Positions 51,308 to 57,361 of a stretch of 64,000 nt of DNA are shown in pieces. The stretch covers positions 1 through 64,000 of the forward strand of contig NZ_JNKN01000008.1 of the NCBI RefSeq assembly GCF_000702065.1. Reading direction: 5' to 3'. Both the position numbers and the translations under genes were made by a program. The stretch is from Kandleria vitulina DSM 20405 (GTDB lineage Bacteria; Bacillota_I; Bacilli_A; Erysipelotrichales; Coprobacillaceae). Under the pieces are notes generated by a model. That model did no database searches. It saw nothing but the letters and a program-made list of their open reading frames with translations, and had not been told where the DNA came from. The first letter of the stretch is position 1; every line of letters begins with the position of its first letter.

Positions 51308-53173
51308 TTAAGCAGCTTTCTTGATATCAGTTAATGCGTCTTTGTTTGTAATAACAACGACAACTGTATCAGAGTATCCTGCCTGTTTAATTTCAGCACG
51401 ATCAAATGTCAATAATAGATCTCCAGTAGAAATCTTATCACCTTGTTCTACATTAGCACCAAAGCCTTTACCTTCCATGTTGACTGTATCTACACCAACA
51501 TGAATTAATAATTCTACACCATCATCACTCTGGATACCGATAGCGTGTTTAGTTGGGAAAATCATTGAAACTGTACCATTGAATGGAGCATAAACTTTAC
51601 CTTCAACTGGTTCAACACCGATTGATGGACCCATAGTTTCAGCAGAGAACATTGGATCAGGAATTTCAGAAGCTGGTACAACTTTACCATTTACTGGTAC
51701 TAATACTTCACCTTTATCAGTAGTGAAAGCTACTTCTTTAGGAGCTTCTAATCCTTCTGGTTCTGCAGCAGGAATATCATCAGGATCTTCATGCCAGATA
51801 ACCATTGTTAATGCGAATGCAATACCACCTGCGATAGCTAACTCAATTGTATAAACTGCAGGATTTGTAATTGTTAAGTAACCTGGAATACCAGTAACAC
51901 CATAAGCAGAAGCGCCTAATTTAGAAATTGCACCGAACCAAGCACCAATAGCACCACCGATCATACCAGCGATGAAAGGTTTCATTAATCGTAAGTTAAC
52001 CCCAAAGATTGCAGGTTCTGTGATACCTAATGAAGCAGATAATGCAGATGGAATAGCAACTGTTCTCATCTTAGGATTCTTAGTCTTAACGGCAACAGCC
52101 AAACATGCACCGAACTGTGCGAAGTTAGCTGCAGATGCGATAGGCATCCAAATATTTAAATTACCAAAATCTTTAGATGCTAATAAACCTGCTTCGATTA
52201 CGTTGTACATATGATGTAAACCAGCTACAACTGTAATTGGATATACAGCACCCATTACAGCTGAACCGATACCAGCACCAACTGTAATTAATACCTGTGC
52301 AGCCTGTAATACGTAAGTTTCAAGTGTTGAGAAAATAGGACCAATAACGATGAAAGTTAAGAATGCAGTAACTAATACTGTAGTTAATGGAGTTACAAAT
52401 AAATCAACAACAGCAGGAACAACGTCATGAAGTTTCTTTTCAATCTTAGACATGAACCATACTGCGATAATAACTGGAATTACGTGCCCCTGATAACCTA
52501 ACTGGTTGATCTGACCTAAAACGTAATCACCAATTCTAGCATGTCCAAATAGATACCATACTTTGTATCCATTTGCAGCATTCCAGCCGTTTGTTAAGTT
52601 TGAATGAATCATCAATAAACCAACAACAGCGCCCAAGAAGATATTACCACCAAATACTCTTGCAGCAGAAACTGCAACGATTACTGGTAAGTAAGCAAAG
52701 GCAGTATTTGAAACCATATCAAGGAATGCGAACCAGTCAGTAGCCCCAAATCCAGGCATTGCTTTTGCCAAGGCTTCAACAAGACCCATCATTAAACCTG
52801 ATGCAACGATTGCAGGTAAGATAGGTACGAATACATCACCAAGAGTTTTTACCATTCTCTGTGGTAATGGCTGGTTAGCAGCTGCAGCAGCTTTTACATC
52901 ATCTTTAGTTGCAGCAGATAAACCAGTAACAGCTAAGAATTCATCGTAAACATGATTTACAGTTCCAGTACCGATGATACACTGTAACTGTCCGTTTGAA
53001 CTGAATACACCCTGTACTCCTTCAACATTTTCAAGTGCTTTCGTATCAACTTTATCGATATCAACAATCGCAAGTCTTAAACGCGTAGCACAATGAGCCG
53101 CAGAAGCAATATTATCTTTTCCACCTAAGTGGCTATAGATTTCTTCTGCACATTTTCTGTAATCTAGTGCCAT
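51308..53173 (-). CDS. scrA: PTS EIIBCA, sucrose/glucoside family
   Basis: The 621 residues contain EIIB (1-85, phospho-cysteine in AHCATRLRLAI), the EIIC membrane domain (about 105-450, ten or so hydrophobic segments, GLHHMYNVIEAGLLA, GITEPAIFGVNLRLMKPF), and a C-terminal EIIA of the glucose type (EGKVYAPFNGTVSMIF...LLIHVGVDTVNMEGKGF, with the phospho-histidine in LIHVG). It imports and phosphorylates a disaccharide, most likely sucrose given the fructokinase and amylosucrase-type enzyme in the operon; trehalose is the main alternative. Confidence 0.88.
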   Translation of the reverse strand: MALDYRKCAEEIYSHLGGKDNIASAAHCATRLRLAIVDIDKVDTKALENVEGVQGVFSSNGQLQCIIGTGTVNHVYDEFLAVTGLSAATKDDVKAAAAANQPLPQRMVKTLGDVFVPILPAIVASGLMMGLVEALAKAMPGFGATDWFAFLDMVSNTAFAYLPVIVAVSAARVFGGNIFLGAVVGLLMIHSNLTNGWNAANGYKVWYLFGHARIGDYVLGQINQLGYQGHVIPVIIAVWFMSKIEKKLHDVVPAVVDLFVTPLTTVLVTAFLTFIVIGPIFSTLETYVLQAAQVLITVGAGIGSAVMGAVYPITVVAGLHHMYNVIEAGLLASKDFGNLNIWMPIASAANFAQFGACLAVAVKTKNPKMRTVAIPSALSASLGITEPAIFGVNLRLMKPFIAGMIGGAIGAWFGAISKLGASAYGVTGIPGYLTITNPAVYTIELAIAGGIAFALTMVIWHEDPDDIPAAEPEGLEAPKEVAFTTDKGEVLVPVNGKVVPASEIPDPMFSAETMGPSIGVEPVEGKVYAPFNGTVSMIFPTKHAIGIQSDDGVELLIHVGVDTVNMEGKGFGANVEQGDKISTGDLLLTFDRAEIKQAGYSDTVVVVITNKDALTDIKKAA

Positions 53174-53215
53174 TTTTTGTTCCCCTCTCTTTACACTAAA
53201 TTTTGTGATTTATAA

Positions 53216-53236
53216 AACATAGAAACTAGCTATGTT
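53216..53236 (-). repeat. Small stem-loop between the HAD and EIIBCA genes
   Basis: AACATAG and CTATGTT form a 7-bp stem followed by TTTT on the minus strand. It may cause partial termination inside the sucrose operon. Confidence 0.4.
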
Positions 53237-53240
53237 CTCA

Positions 53241-54071
53241 CTAAATTAAACCAAGTTCTTCAAACGATCTATAAATACCATCTTCAGTAACAGAAGGCGC
53301 AATAACATCAGCCATTCTCTTTAATACCTCACTGCCATTTTCCATGACAACAGAAGTACCGACTGTTTCGATCATTTCTAGATCATTGATAGAATCTCCA
53401 AAACCATATGTATCCTTGATATCCACACCCAATGTCTTACAAATACGCTTAATGCCAAGACCCTTATCAAACTTTCTGTTTACAAGATCTCCATTAAGGC
53501 AATTATGAGCGGCAACATCCTGAATCATGAATGCGAAATCACCTTCAAGATATTTCTTTGCTTCATCGAGCTGTTCACTCTTATTACACATGATAACAAC
53601 TTTATAAATTGGACGGCCATCATATTCACTCATTGGCTTAATGCCCAATCCTTCAGCAAGAGCTTTACGCCATCTTTCAATTTCACTGTTACCCTCAGTC
53701 TGATCACTTAAGAAATCTCCTAAGCTTTCATCTCCAAAAGTTGCGTCTTTTGCTTCAATGGTTCTGAATACACCATTCTTGCCAAGTACATCTAAAGCGA
53801 TATCACGTTGTCTATCCGACATTGGACAGTCAAAGATGACATCATCACCGACAGTTACATACCCTCCTCCAAGTGCAACTAGTCCATCAAATCCATACTT
53901 TAAAAGTGGTGCCAGCATTGCAACATTACGACCAGTGCAAAGGAAAACTTTGTTTCCTTTTGCCTTAGTCATTTCCAATGCCTTAAGAGCACTTTCTGGA
54001 GGTGTATTTGAGCCTGGCTCTGTTAATGTTCCATCAATATCAAGGAAAATTAGTTTACCACTCTTACTCAT
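53241..54071 (-). CDS. HAD superfamily phosphatase, Cof-type
   Basis: The 276 residues have motif I LIFLDIDGTLTEPGS, the CTGR motif VFLCTGRNVAMLAPLL, and the final motif DTYGFGDSINDLEMIETVGTSVVMENG, with a C2B cap between. The gene begins one base after the amylosucrase-type gene and precedes EIIBCA, so it is part of the sucrose operon. A possible task is removing phosphate from a sugar phosphate made by the PTS, but the substrate is not known. Confidence 0.88.
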   Translation of the reverse strand: MSKSGKLIFLDIDGTLTEPGSNTPPESALKALEMTKAKGNKVFLCTGRNVAMLAPLLKYGFDGLVALGGGYVTVGDDVIFDCPMSDRQRDIALDVLGKNGVFRTIEAKDATFGDESLGDFLSDQTEGNSEIERWRKALAEGLGIKPMSEYDGRPIYKVVIMCNKSEQLDEAKKYLEGDFAFMIQDVAAHNCLNGDLVNRKFDKGLGIKRICKTLGVDIKDTYGFGDSINDLEMIETVGTSVVMENGSEVLKRMADVIAPSVTEDGIYRSFEELGLI

Positions 54072-54072
54072 A

Positions 54073-56280
54073 CTATTTCCCTTTCGCTTTTGTACTCTTT
54101 GATTTTGTCTTTTTTACTGTCGAAGACTTCTTAGTCTCTTTTTTTGCTGCAGTTTTCACTGCTGGCTTTGTTTCTTTCTTAACAGCAGCCTTAGTCTCTT
54201 TAACTTCAGCCTTAGCTGCTGGTTTTGTTTCTTTCTTAGCAGCTACAGTTTTAGCTGCTGCTTTAGTTTCCTTGACTTCAGTTTTCACTTCAGTCTTAGT
54301 TTCTTTCTTAGCAGCTTTAGCTTTTACTGTTTTTTTAGCAGTTGTCTTTTTTGCTGCTTTTTTAGCTGGCGCTTTTTTCTTTGGCTTAGTTAAAGCTTCA
54401 AGATCTGGCGCAGTCATTGTTTTCTTGTTTTCTTTATAAGAATGGAATAACCATACGAAACCATGTGGTGGTAACTGTACAGCTTTTGCTTCACGTTTTT
54501 CACCAGTCATTAATTCAATGAAATCTTCTGGTTCATCAATCCATGCTGTCTGCTCATTATCCGCAAAGTTGAATAATGCAATCAGCTTCTGATCATTATA
54601 ATATCTACCGATACCTAAGATATGATCATTCCATGGTTCAACAATCCATGTATCTGCATTGCTGTCAAATACATCATATGAAGCTCTTAAGATCTGTAAT
54701 TTCTTGATAGCCTGGAACAACTGTCCCTGTCTAGTAGAAAGATCTTCTCTCATAGCGACATGATCCCAATTCAACTTACCTCTATGAAGGTATCTTGAAT
54801 CATCCCATTTTAATGGATCATCATGATAAGAATAATCATTAAGCTGACCAATTTCATCACCACTGTAAAGAACTGGAATACCACTTTGAGTAAATAGGAA
54901 TGCATGAAGAGTAATATCTAAATCAATTGCCATCTTCAATTTCCATTTATTCTGTTCAAAATCAGCAGCTTCAACACCACAAAGCGATGCTGTTGTACCA
55001 CACATTCTGGCATCACCTAAACGTGGATCATCATTATAAAGTTCACCACGTGCCTGAGATTCCCACAATGCACCTTTTAAATAATCATTCAAGTATTTCT
55101 TATGAGATACTTCTTCAATACCGAACTGTCCTAAGAAATCATAATCAAGTCCCCAACCGATATCATCATGACATCTTAAGTAGTTAAGGAATGTATATGA
55201 CTTAGGTAAAGCAAATACAGTTTCTAGCTGATGTCTTAATAATCTAACATCCTTAGTTGCAACTGTATGCCATGTAGAAGCCATTGTTGTAACATTATAA
55301 AGCATGTGACATTCTGGCTTATCAACTGTACCAAAGTAAGGTACAACCTTTGAAGGTTCCATAACAACTTCACCTAATAACAATGTACCAGGACATACGA
55401 TATCAGCAGCCATGTGCATGATTCTAACTAATGTATGTACCTGAGGTAGGTTTCGACAAGTTGTTCCTAATGTTTTCCAAATATAAGGAACAGCATCTAA
55501 ACGAATGATATCTACACCGTTATTACATAAGTAAAGCATATTGGCAGTCATATCATTAAATACAGTTGGATTAGCATAATTCAAATCCCACTGATAAGGA
55601 TAGAATGTAGTCATTACAACCTTACCAGCTTCATCACACCAAGAGAAGTTTCCAGGTGCTGTCTGTGGGAATACCTGAGGAACTGTCTTCTCAAATTCAT
55701 TTGGAATATTCCAATTATCAAAGAAGAAGTAACGATCCTGATACTCTTTTTCACCAGCTCTTGCTCGTCTTGCCCATTCATGATCTTCTGAAGTATGATT
55801 CATAACGAAATCAAGACATAACGACATACCTTTAGCATGACATTCATCTGCAAGTGCAGCTAAGTCTTCCATAGTACCAATTTCAGGCTGAACTTTTCTA
55901 AAATCAGATACCGCATATCCACCATCACTACGTCCTTCAGGTGATTCAAGCAATGGCATTAAATGGAGATAATTAATACGGCATTCTTTTAAATAATCAA
56001 GTTTTTCCTTAAGACCTTTTAAATCTTCATTAAAACACTGAGTATACATCAACTCTCCCATCATATCGTTTCCACGATACCAATCAGGGACAGCGAGTCT
56101 TGCTTCATCCCACTCTTTAAGAAGTGGTTTTCTTTGTACGTAATAATCATGTAGCATTGTACAGAAATAATTGAAAGCTTCTTCATTATTATTGTAGATT
56201 TCTGCATAAAGCCACTTTAATTCATCATAATGCTTTTCAAGTCTTTCTTTAAATTCTGGTTCCCAATTTGGATTAATCAC
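54073..56280 (-). CDS. Amylosucrase-type GH13_4 enzyme with a Lys/Ala-rich, histone-H1-like C-terminal tail
   Basis: Residues 1 to about 620 match amylosucrases: N-terminal helices with RKPLLKEWDEARLAVPDWY, LHLMPLLESPEGRSDGGYAVSDF, LCLDFVMNHTSEDHEWA, nucleophile in DIIRLDAVPYIWK, acid/base in LLLGEVVMEP, and LRCHDDIGWG. Such enzymes cleave sucrose and either build alpha-glucan or release glucose. Residues 632-735 form a low-complexity tail of about 40 Lys in 104, plus Ala, Thr and Glu (KPKKKAPAKKAAKKTTAKK...), like bacterial H1-type proteins. The reading frame is continuous. It follows fructokinase by 12 nt. Polymer, nucleic-acid or membrane binding by the tail is speculation. Confidence 0.88.
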   Translation of the reverse strand: MINPNWEPEFKERLEKHYDELKWLYAEIYNNNEEAFNYFCTMLHDYYVQRKPLLKEWDEARLAVPDWYRGNDMMGELMYTQCFNEDLKGLKEKLDYLKECRINYLHLMPLLESPEGRSDGGYAVSDFRKVQPEIGTMEDLAALADECHAKGMSLCLDFVMNHTSEDHEWARRARAGEKEYQDRYFFFDNWNIPNEFEKTVPQVFPQTAPGNFSWCDEAGKVVMTTFYPYQWDLNYANPTVFNDMTANMLYLCNNGVDIIRLDAVPYIWKTLGTTCRNLPQVHTLVRIMHMAADIVCPGTLLLGEVVMEPSKVVPYFGTVDKPECHMLYNVTTMASTWHTVATKDVRLLRHQLETVFALPKSYTFLNYLRCHDDIGWGLDYDFLGQFGIEEVSHKKYLNDYLKGALWESQARGELYNDDPRLGDARMCGTTASLCGVEAADFEQNKWKLKMAIDLDITLHAFLFTQSGIPVLYSGDEIGQLNDYSYHDDPLKWDDSRYLHRGKLNWDHVAMREDLSTRQGQLFQAIKKLQILRASYDVFDSNADTWIVEPWNDHILGIGRYYNDQKLIALFNFADNEQTAWIDEPEDFIELMTGEKREAKAVQLPPHGFVWLFHSYKENKKTMTAPDLEALTKPKKKAPAKKAAKKTTAKKTVKAKAAKKETKTEVKTEVKETKAAAKTVAAKKETKPAAKAEVKETKAAVKKETKPAVKTAAKKETKKSSTVKKTKSKSTKAKGK

Positions 56281-56292
56281 AAGATGTCCTCC

Positions 56293-57270
56293 TTAATAGT
56301 TATTGATAAACTGATCTACATCTTCAACATGAGGCATAACTCTTAATGCCCCTTTCTTAGTTGTAATCATTGAAGCTGCACCGTTTGCAAAAGTGATAAT
56401 TGTTTTAATTTTTTCTTCATCAAGGTGATCAAGACCGTTTTCCAATACACCATTAAGAACACATGCACAGAAAGTATCTCCGGCACCTGTAGTTTCGATT
56501 GTTTTATCCTGAAGGAAAGCAGGGATAGTAACATCAACCTGATCCTTATAGATAGCTCTTGATCCGTCTGGACCTAATGAAAGACAAATTAACTGAATAT
56601 TAGGGTAATGAGACTGTAAATATGCAATACCATCATCATAATTATCTTTTCCTGTAAACCATAAGATTTCATTATCAGAAATCTTTAATACATGGCAATG
56701 TTTCATACCATAATCAAAAGCTTCTTTTGCATCATCTAATGAATCCCATAGTGGTTCTCTTAAGTTAGGATCAAAAGAAATGATCAAATCATTCCTTTCA
56801 GCAACTTCGATTGCTTTCTTAGTTGCACTCTTAACTGGTTCATCAGTTAATGACAAAGTTCCAAAATGGAACAAACGTGAGCCTGCAATTAAATCTTCAT
56901 CTACTTCTTCAGCTTTAAGATTAATATCAGCTCCTGGTTTTCTATAGAATGAGAAATCACGATCCCCATTCTCTAATTTATGTACAAGTGCCAATGTTGT
57001 ATGTACATCTTCATCAAAACAAAGACCACGTGTACTGATTCCTTGTTCTTCGATAGCCTGTGCTAGCTGTTCACCAAAGCCATCTTTACCAACCTTCCCA
57101 ATGAAGGCAACCTTTTTCCCAAAACGAGTCAACATTGATAATACGTTACATGGAGCTCCTCCTGGATTAGCTTCGAACATCGGATTCCCCTGTTCCGAAA
57201 TTCCTCCTTGCGTGAAGTCAATGAGCAGCTCTCCCAATGCTACTACATCAAATTCTTTTAAATCACTCAT
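56293..57270 (-). CDS. scrK: Fructokinase, PfkB family
   Basis: This 325-residue ribokinase-family enzyme starts MSDLKEFDVVALGELLIDFTQGG, has the N-terminal motif NPGGAPCNVLSMLTRFGKKVAFIGKVGKDGFG and the C-terminal signature IETTGAGDTFCACVLNGVLE with the catalytic aspartate. It phosphorylates fructose released by the amylosucrase-type enzyme. The start at 57270 follows AAAGGGG; longer in-frame starts lie in the promoter region and are rejected. First gene of the sucrose operon, preceded by two inverted-repeat operators. Confidence 0.93.
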   Translation of the reverse strand: MSDLKEFDVVALGELLIDFTQGGISEQGNPMFEANPGGAPCNVLSMLTRFGKKVAFIGKVGKDGFGEQLAQAIEEQGISTRGLCFDEDVHTTLALVHKLENGDRDFSFYRKPGADINLKAEEVDEDLIAGSRLFHFGTLSLTDEPVKSATKKAIEVAERNDLIISFDPNLREPLWDSLDDAKEAFDYGMKHCHVLKISDNEILWFTGKDNYDDGIAYLQSHYPNIQLICLSLGPDGSRAIYKDQVDVTIPAFLQDKTIETTGAGDTFCACVLNGVLENGLDHLDEEKIKTIITFANGAASMITTKKGALRVMPHVEDVDQFINNY

Positions 57271-57328
57271 TTTTATACCCCTTTCATGTTGTTTCATTAT
57301 CATCACTATACAATAATTTTTTTTATGA

Positions 57329-57341
57329 TGAAAGCGTTTCA
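57329..57341. promoter_or_regulatory. LacI-family-like operator, copy 1
   Basis: TGAAAGCGTTTCA is an inverted repeat TGAAA-N3-TTTCA. It covers the -35 position for a possible TATAGT -10 (minus strand, 57305-57310). It is one base shorter than a CcpA cre site. Confidence 0.6.
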
Positions 57342-57361
57342 CTTTTCAAATTATAAAAACA

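Follow-up and report, generated by a model that had tools for sequence, protein, structure and literature searches.

The window, a stretch of 64,000 nt from Kandleria vitulina DSM 20405 (contig NZ_JNKN01000008.1), carries a GH13_4 gene on its minus strand (54073-56280 including the stop codon, GTG start) that encodes a protein of 735 aa with an unusual C-terminal extension. The features of this gene and of its neighbours are the following:

51308..53173, minus strand: PTS EIIBCA of the sucrose/beta-glucoside type (TIGR01995/TIGR01996 at about 1e-154, below their cut-offs; conserved neighbour)
53241..54071, minus strand: HAD-IIB (Cof-type) phosphatase, candidate sucrose-6-phosphate phosphatase (Pfam, neighbour conservation)
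54076..54429, minus strand: H1-like tail, residues 618-735 (118 aa), net charge about +31, predicted disordered (composition, AlphaFold2)
54076..54387, minus strand: segment of the tail richest in Lys (40), residues 632-735, with diverged repeats of ETKPA/VKETKA type (translation, DNA repeats)
54430..56280, minus strand: GH13_4 amylosucrase-type core, residues 1-617, with the catalytic (beta/alpha)8 and the C-terminal beta domain (phmmer, Pfam, orthologue identity)
56288..56293, minus strand: ribosome-binding site AGGAGG preceding the GTG start of the GH13_4 gene (sequence)
56293..57342, minus strand: PfkB-family fructokinase-like gene, the first of a conserved run, its true start probably an internal ATG (Pfam, NCBIfam, neighbour conservation)

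Residues 10-577 are similar to solved amylosucrases (phmmer E = 3e-136 for 7esh and 1e-130 for 1g5a of N. polysaccharea), the core is matched by Pfam Alpha-amylase (2.1e-50) and its mean column identity is 80% (11 orthologues). D262, E304, H371/D372 and the D119-R496 pair align with the N. polysaccharea amylosucrase, so both the similarity to characterised amylosucrases and the catalytic Asp/Glu/Asp that define GH13_4 amylosucrases are present. From family knowledge we take D262 to be the nucleophile and E304 the acid/base, and H371/D372 and the D119-R496 pair to have the roles usual in the family. An AlphaFold2 model (13-sequence alignment) has a poor core with a mean pLDDT of 54; the family assignment is secure because sequence similarity settles the family.

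The core terminates at ...FVWLFHS, about residue 617. The initial annotation held that amylosucrases end after their C-domain and that here a 104-residue tail with about 40 lysines follows in frame, and both points are borne out: the solved amylosucrases (1g5a, 7esh) share the catalytic and C-terminal beta domains and the catalytic residues, yet are 628-656 residues long and lack a Lys-rich tail, and residues 632-735 of the present protein hold exactly 40 Lys in an unbroken frame. This frame is continuous up to a stop codon that abuts the next start (TAG, T, ATG), the phosphatase gene beginning one base past it. Residues 618-735 as a whole comprise K43, R0, E11 and D1 (net about +31) and consist mostly of Lys, Ala, Thr and Glu, with degenerate 33-nt and 27-nt DNA repeats underlying them. 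AlphaFold2 gives a pLDDT below 50 across the tail, a weak indication given the shallow alignment. No match to the tail was found in Pfam, NCBIfam or PDB, which rules it out as a recognisable domain, and no curated Pfam model of histone-like families (linker histone, HC1/HC2) matches the tails; since no family model recognises these parts, 'H1-like' is a statement on composition only. In having a long, apparently disordered tail that is basic, rich in Lys and Ala and made of low-complexity repeats, the protein resembles tethers of the PhaF/AlgP type.

The run of PfkB fructokinase, GH13_4, HAD phosphatase and sucrose-type PTS (51308-57342) is kept in most relatives, in Bacillota and Spirochaetota. 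The fructokinase-like gene matches Pfam PfkB (6.9e-51) and the NCBIfam fructokinase model (3.4e-55, below cut-off), and the phosphatase matches Hydrolase_3 (4e-43) and, over its cut-off, S6PP (29.6 bits). Judging from these assignments, sucrose would enter through the PTS as sucrose-6-phosphate and be dephosphorylated by the HAD phosphatase, the amylosucrase would turn it into glucan and the released fructose would be phosphorylated; an ordinary sucrose route is also offered by several GH32 enzymes encoded at other loci of the genome. The tailed protein is predicted to be a cytoplasmic amylosucrase making alpha-1,4-glucan from sucrose, as part of an overall explanation, set out below, in which we place modest confidence. 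A tie between tail and operon was considered and ruled out, as the same operon is found with and without a tail.

Recurrence of the tails on glucan-synthesising enzymes

Mapping the combination of GH13_4 and a Lys-rich tail, as the initial annotation had proposed, showed it to be recurrent and patchy across Erysipelotrichales and Lachnospiraceae. Four related species (G019, G020, G030, G031) have GH13_4 tails that differ in sequence and resemble each other in make-up: in G019 and G020, whose cores are 87% identical, the tail is about 145-155 aa long and passes from a spacer rich in K, E and A into a strongly basic terminus (e.g. TRKTTKKPRSTTKKKGRK), while in G030 and G031 it is built of 13-residue units in tandem, VKAEAKPAEKKAE, and closes with a near-identical basic segment, KKTTRKPAAKKTRKTTKKASTKK. 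The G029 protein ends merely in KSKSGKKKKNKRSKKGH and that of G011 is tail-less. Tails of other sequence and like make-up occur in more distant Erysipelotrichales and in named Lachnospiraceae (loci L072, L073, L077, L079, L086, L088, L092 and L100); most other GH13_4 orthologues, including all those from Synergistota and Spirochaetota, have no such tail. A conserved motif that is not of low complexity, (E)ELT..(A)V..RKMPLKGAPAR, closes the GH13_4 C-tails of four f2 genomes (L046, L049, L050, L051).

A tree of 106 cores shows at least nine switches of the long-tail state, seven of them forced by well supported branches, with gain and loss indistinguishable on this tree. In close pairs the tails have dN/dS values, rough owing to repeat alignment, of 0.06 (GH13_4), 0.32 (GlgB) and 0.22-0.50 (GlgA2), against 0.02 for a core, and replacements in the tails of the closest pairs are mostly charge-preserving, which places the tails under purifying selection. 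Tail-less relatives with the same operon, one half of what the initial annotation would have counted against its reading of the tail, do exist (G011, G209, L112), showing that the GH13_4 tail is not required for the pathway; G011, however, retains a tail on its second glycogen synthase, GlgA2.

Two further enzymes of this genome (G000) are tailed:

L177:8345-10297 (G000:C10): branching enzyme GlgB with H1-like C-tail (sequence)
L269:9121-11394 (G000:C2): second glycogen synthase GlgA2, 757 aa, with an N-tail of ~275 residues (codon-pattern search)

The C-terminal end of GlgB reads RKPAEKKKTARKTTKKPVKKSKTTKTAKK, with final residues ...FEYRKPAEKKKTARKTTKKPVKKSKTTKTAKK, and its tail has a net charge of +14. 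Within family f1, long H1-like GlgB tails (29-117 aa) are found in G000, G019, G020, G030 and G031, precisely the set in which GH13_4 is long-tailed (Fisher p = 8e-6, shared ancestry ignored), and the remaining readable f1 GlgB proteins have no tail, short basic ends or, in G029, a helical K/E/A extension. GlgB tails are also present in f2 genomes devoid of GH13_4, e.g. G109, G097, G125 and G131. Among Lachnospiraceae, a GlgB tail by the criterion used accompanies the long GH13_4 tail in three of eight genomes, a weak trend, and the idea that it could flag tailed GH13_4 enzymes in that family was dropped. Side cases include L074 (Clostridium vitabionis), with a tail-less GH13_4 and a GlgB (L340) bearing an H1-like C-tail of ~80 aa, and L356, L343 and L354, where the GlgB tails sit at the N-terminus instead.

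The GlgA2 N-tail consists of about eleven 19-residue Lys/Ala/Glu repeats (KPAKKAAAKKTVKETKAEE), and such N-tails are carried by 11/12 GlgA2 in f1 and by 20/22 readable ones in the order, with a basic distal and an acidic core-proximal block. In G030 and G031 the GlgA2 and GH13_4 tails have a common repeat unit (72-85% DNA identity), which suggests exchange between the two genes or a common constraint. The cores of GlgA2 and GlgB match those of bacterial GlgA and GlgB, the difference lying in the N- or C-terminal H1-like tails. In the same genome no tail was found on GlgC, GlgD, GlgA1 (L331:10485-14160), phosphorylase or pullulanase (L177), and the tails are a trait of the synthesis side, the enzymes of supply and breakdown being bare.

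Such segments are scarce elsewhere. In a specificity sample of 859 kb (775 ORFs) from spaced stretches of G000, window included, and of G019, terminal segments of this kind were found on the two amylosucrases and on one 253-aa protein (no Pfam match). Three more proteins have them internally, and at least one of the three is probably secreted. Among the 815 ORFs that the fetched loci contain, a C-terminus that is strongly basic and poor in hydrophobic residues is present on 11/86 GH13_4 entries versus 3/729 others (Fisher p = 3e-9, relatedness ignored), the three others being one GlgB and two antisense ORFs of a GC-rich contig. Used as a query against its own genome, the tail sequence returned the self-match only, low-complexity filters hiding relatives. 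It was outdone by a KKxxKK codon-pattern search, most matches of which are non-coding chance, at similar levels in controls; a codon pattern for KK, any two residues from A/P/S/T, KK and again one from A/P/S/T is matched, in the whole genome, only in the GH13_4 tail and at one other place. The sample and the codon-pattern search together rule out that tails of this kind are simply common in Lys-rich genomes.

Several unrelated observations arose along the way. A 346-aa secreted-looking protein with dense internal KKTTKK repeats is encoded at L213 (G029:C75), and the start of a Cas9-like protein, with an N-terminus resembling RuvC-I by eye, lies at L269:16660-18000 (G000:C2). The sequence AAAAAAACACCTAAAAAA, probably a mobile or other repeat, is present on five contigs (G000:C15, C18, C35, C40, C42), two of which have it in about their first 200 bases.

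Possible targets of the tails

We consider it somewhat more probable than not, on sequence and by analogy with known granule tethers, that the tails of amylosucrase, GlgB and GlgA2 attach non-specifically to nucleic acid, with nucleoid DNA the likeliest target, and gather glucan synthesis there. The polycationic tails would tie the polymerising and branching enzymes to the nucleoid, the growing glucan would be held there along with them, and glucan granules might thereby be spaced and shared between daughter cells, as PHA granules are through PhaF/PhaM and polyphosphate granules through AlgP. That Erysipelotrichales and some Lachnospiraceae anchor their whole glucan-polymerising set (amylosucrase, GlgB, GlgA2) to the nucleoid in this way, by tails gained recurrently, is a wider proposal that we make more tentatively.

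The best pointer to nucleic acid is the GlgA2 of G207 (L370:1177-2949), whose N-terminus is a Rho_N domain scoring 41.4 bits against a cut-off of 24.9, with SAP and HeH matched less well. Behind this domain lie a short stretch rich in Lys and then an acidic linker; a PDB search gave weak Rho matches only. Domains of the Rho_N/SAP type are nucleic-acid binders, and this one, in one protein, is the sole clear domain-level indication. The GH13_4 tail of L072 contains a repeated KKRGRKTKAEKE, which is AT-hook-like by eye and has no Pfam AT-hook match. The initial annotation had suggested that the tail holds the enzyme on a polyanion (nucleic acid, teichoic acid or polyphosphate) or on its own glucan granule and thereby localises glucan synthesis. 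Its general idea gains from the recurrence of the tails, their selection, their presence on GlgB and GlgA2 and the Rho_N relative, with nucleic acid now the favoured target and the other three disfavoured. Teichoic acid is unlikely given a cytoplasmic pathway and the lack of any apparent signal peptide, and direct binding to a neutral glucan is unsupported as the tail is charge-rich.

The tails are polyampholytes, several of them Glu-rich, a property that would also suit co-assembly or binding to RNA or ribosomes. Co-assembly is the main rival, one we think unlikely: GlgA2, GlgB and amylosucrase would bind each other through their mixed-charge tails and form a condensate or multi-enzyme particle without nucleic acid, channelling glucan chains from elongation to branching. 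The polyampholyte character of the tails on all three enzymes agrees with this, as do the basic distal and acidic proximal blocks of GlgA2, the repeat unit common to GlgA2 and GH13_4 within one genome (G030/G031) and the position of the untailed enzymes on the supply and breakdown sides. However, in this genome both the GH13_4 (+31) and the GlgB (+14) tail have a strong excess of basic charge, no acidic partner was found for them and a Rho_N domain on one GlgA2 better suits nucleic acid. Co-assembly is compatible with nucleic-acid tethering and the two could act together.

Lys-rich disordered tails bind many polyanions, and a target other than DNA, namely RNA or ribosomes, the anionic inner membrane or polyphosphate, is a little less probable again than co-assembly. 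AlgP associates with polyphosphate granules (PMC9239181), which speaks for the last of these, yet PPK1 (PF02503) is absent from the 99.9% complete genome, making polyphosphate less likely here, and the tail shows neither an amphipathic nor a hydrophobic anchor. It is quite improbable that the tails are functionless by-products of repeat slippage tolerated at protein termini: their tandem repeats, their variable length and presence and the tail-less orthologues that retain the operon would fit, but the dN/dS range of 0.06-0.50 with mostly charge-preserving replacements in the closest pairs, the near-absence of such segments elsewhere in the sampled genomes and the fact that three glucan enzymes that are not orthologous bear them, at different ends, do not. 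Finally, a sequencing or assembly frameshift before the tail, which the initial annotation had allowed for and which would have fused a foreign reading frame to the amylosucrase, is refuted to the point of negligible probability by in-frame tails of like make-up on relatives in independent assemblies, among them the single-contig genome G019.

Known tethers and implications for glycogen placement

The proposed tethering of synthesis to nucleic acid by the tails has counterparts for other storage polymers. In Pseudomonas aeruginosa, removal of the KPAA tail of AlgP disturbs the number and spacing of polyphosphate granules (PMC9239181); AlgP likewise combines a long disordered Lys/Ala/Pro-rich repeat tail with association to a storage polymer, whereas it is a non-enzyme acting on polyphosphate through KPAA repeats and here the carrier is the synthase itself, whose polymer would be alpha-glucan. 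PhaF and PhaM tether PHA granules to the nucleoid and have a role in granule distribution (PMC13052382), with one end on the storage polymer or synthase and the other a histone-like DNA-binding region, an arrangement that the tailed enzymes would share. They differ in being phasin-type or synthase-activating proteins unconnected with glucan, and the likeness of the tails is one of composition. As Pfam finds only GH13 domains in the tailed GH13_4 protein, and no phasin N-terminal domain, it is not a member of the phasin family and at most works alike.

The genetic setting has a parallel in the sucrose operon of Synechococcus PCC 7002, spsA-sppA-frkA-amsA, described in part of a 2024 review of prokaryotic alpha-glucan enzymes (PMC11046441), where an amylosucrase gene likewise stands beside genes for sucrose-phosphate phosphatase and fructokinase; sucrose is synthesised there and seemingly PTS-imported here, and that part of the review mentions no tail on the enzyme. 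The portion of the review drawn on here describes bacterial glycogen as being without protein content to cluster particles and does not speak of Lys-rich or disordered regions, of histone or of nucleoid. Glycogen is absent from a 2025 review on how bacteria position their organelles, which does deal with the tethers of PHA and polyphosphate (PMC13052382). Literature searches on amylosucrase and Catenibacterium, on a glycogen granule-nucleoid tether and on branching enzyme with a Lys-rich tail found no earlier report of tailed glucan enzymes. The principle of an H1-like tail serving a storage polymer is known; what is new is the polymer and the placement of the tail on the polymerising enzymes themselves.

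The existence of such tails is perhaps of interest to enzyme producers, and the placement and inheritance of bacterial glycogen are largely unstudied; the tail is a concrete, easily deleted module that would make the question of glycogen placement testable. Sharpea azabuensis, a rumen species, is presumably close to this genome. In the sheep rumen its glycogen synthase and two GlgC-type subunits are among the ten most expressed genes (PMC5069950), so that the tailed system may be of importance to how carbon is stored in the gut. Should tethering to the nucleoid hold true, a nucleoid-positioned glycogen granule would provide protein-based positioning and inheritance for a polymer for which none is described in PMC13052382 or in the part of PMC11046441 cited above, and one strategy, the H1-like tail, would span PHA, polyphosphate and glucan.
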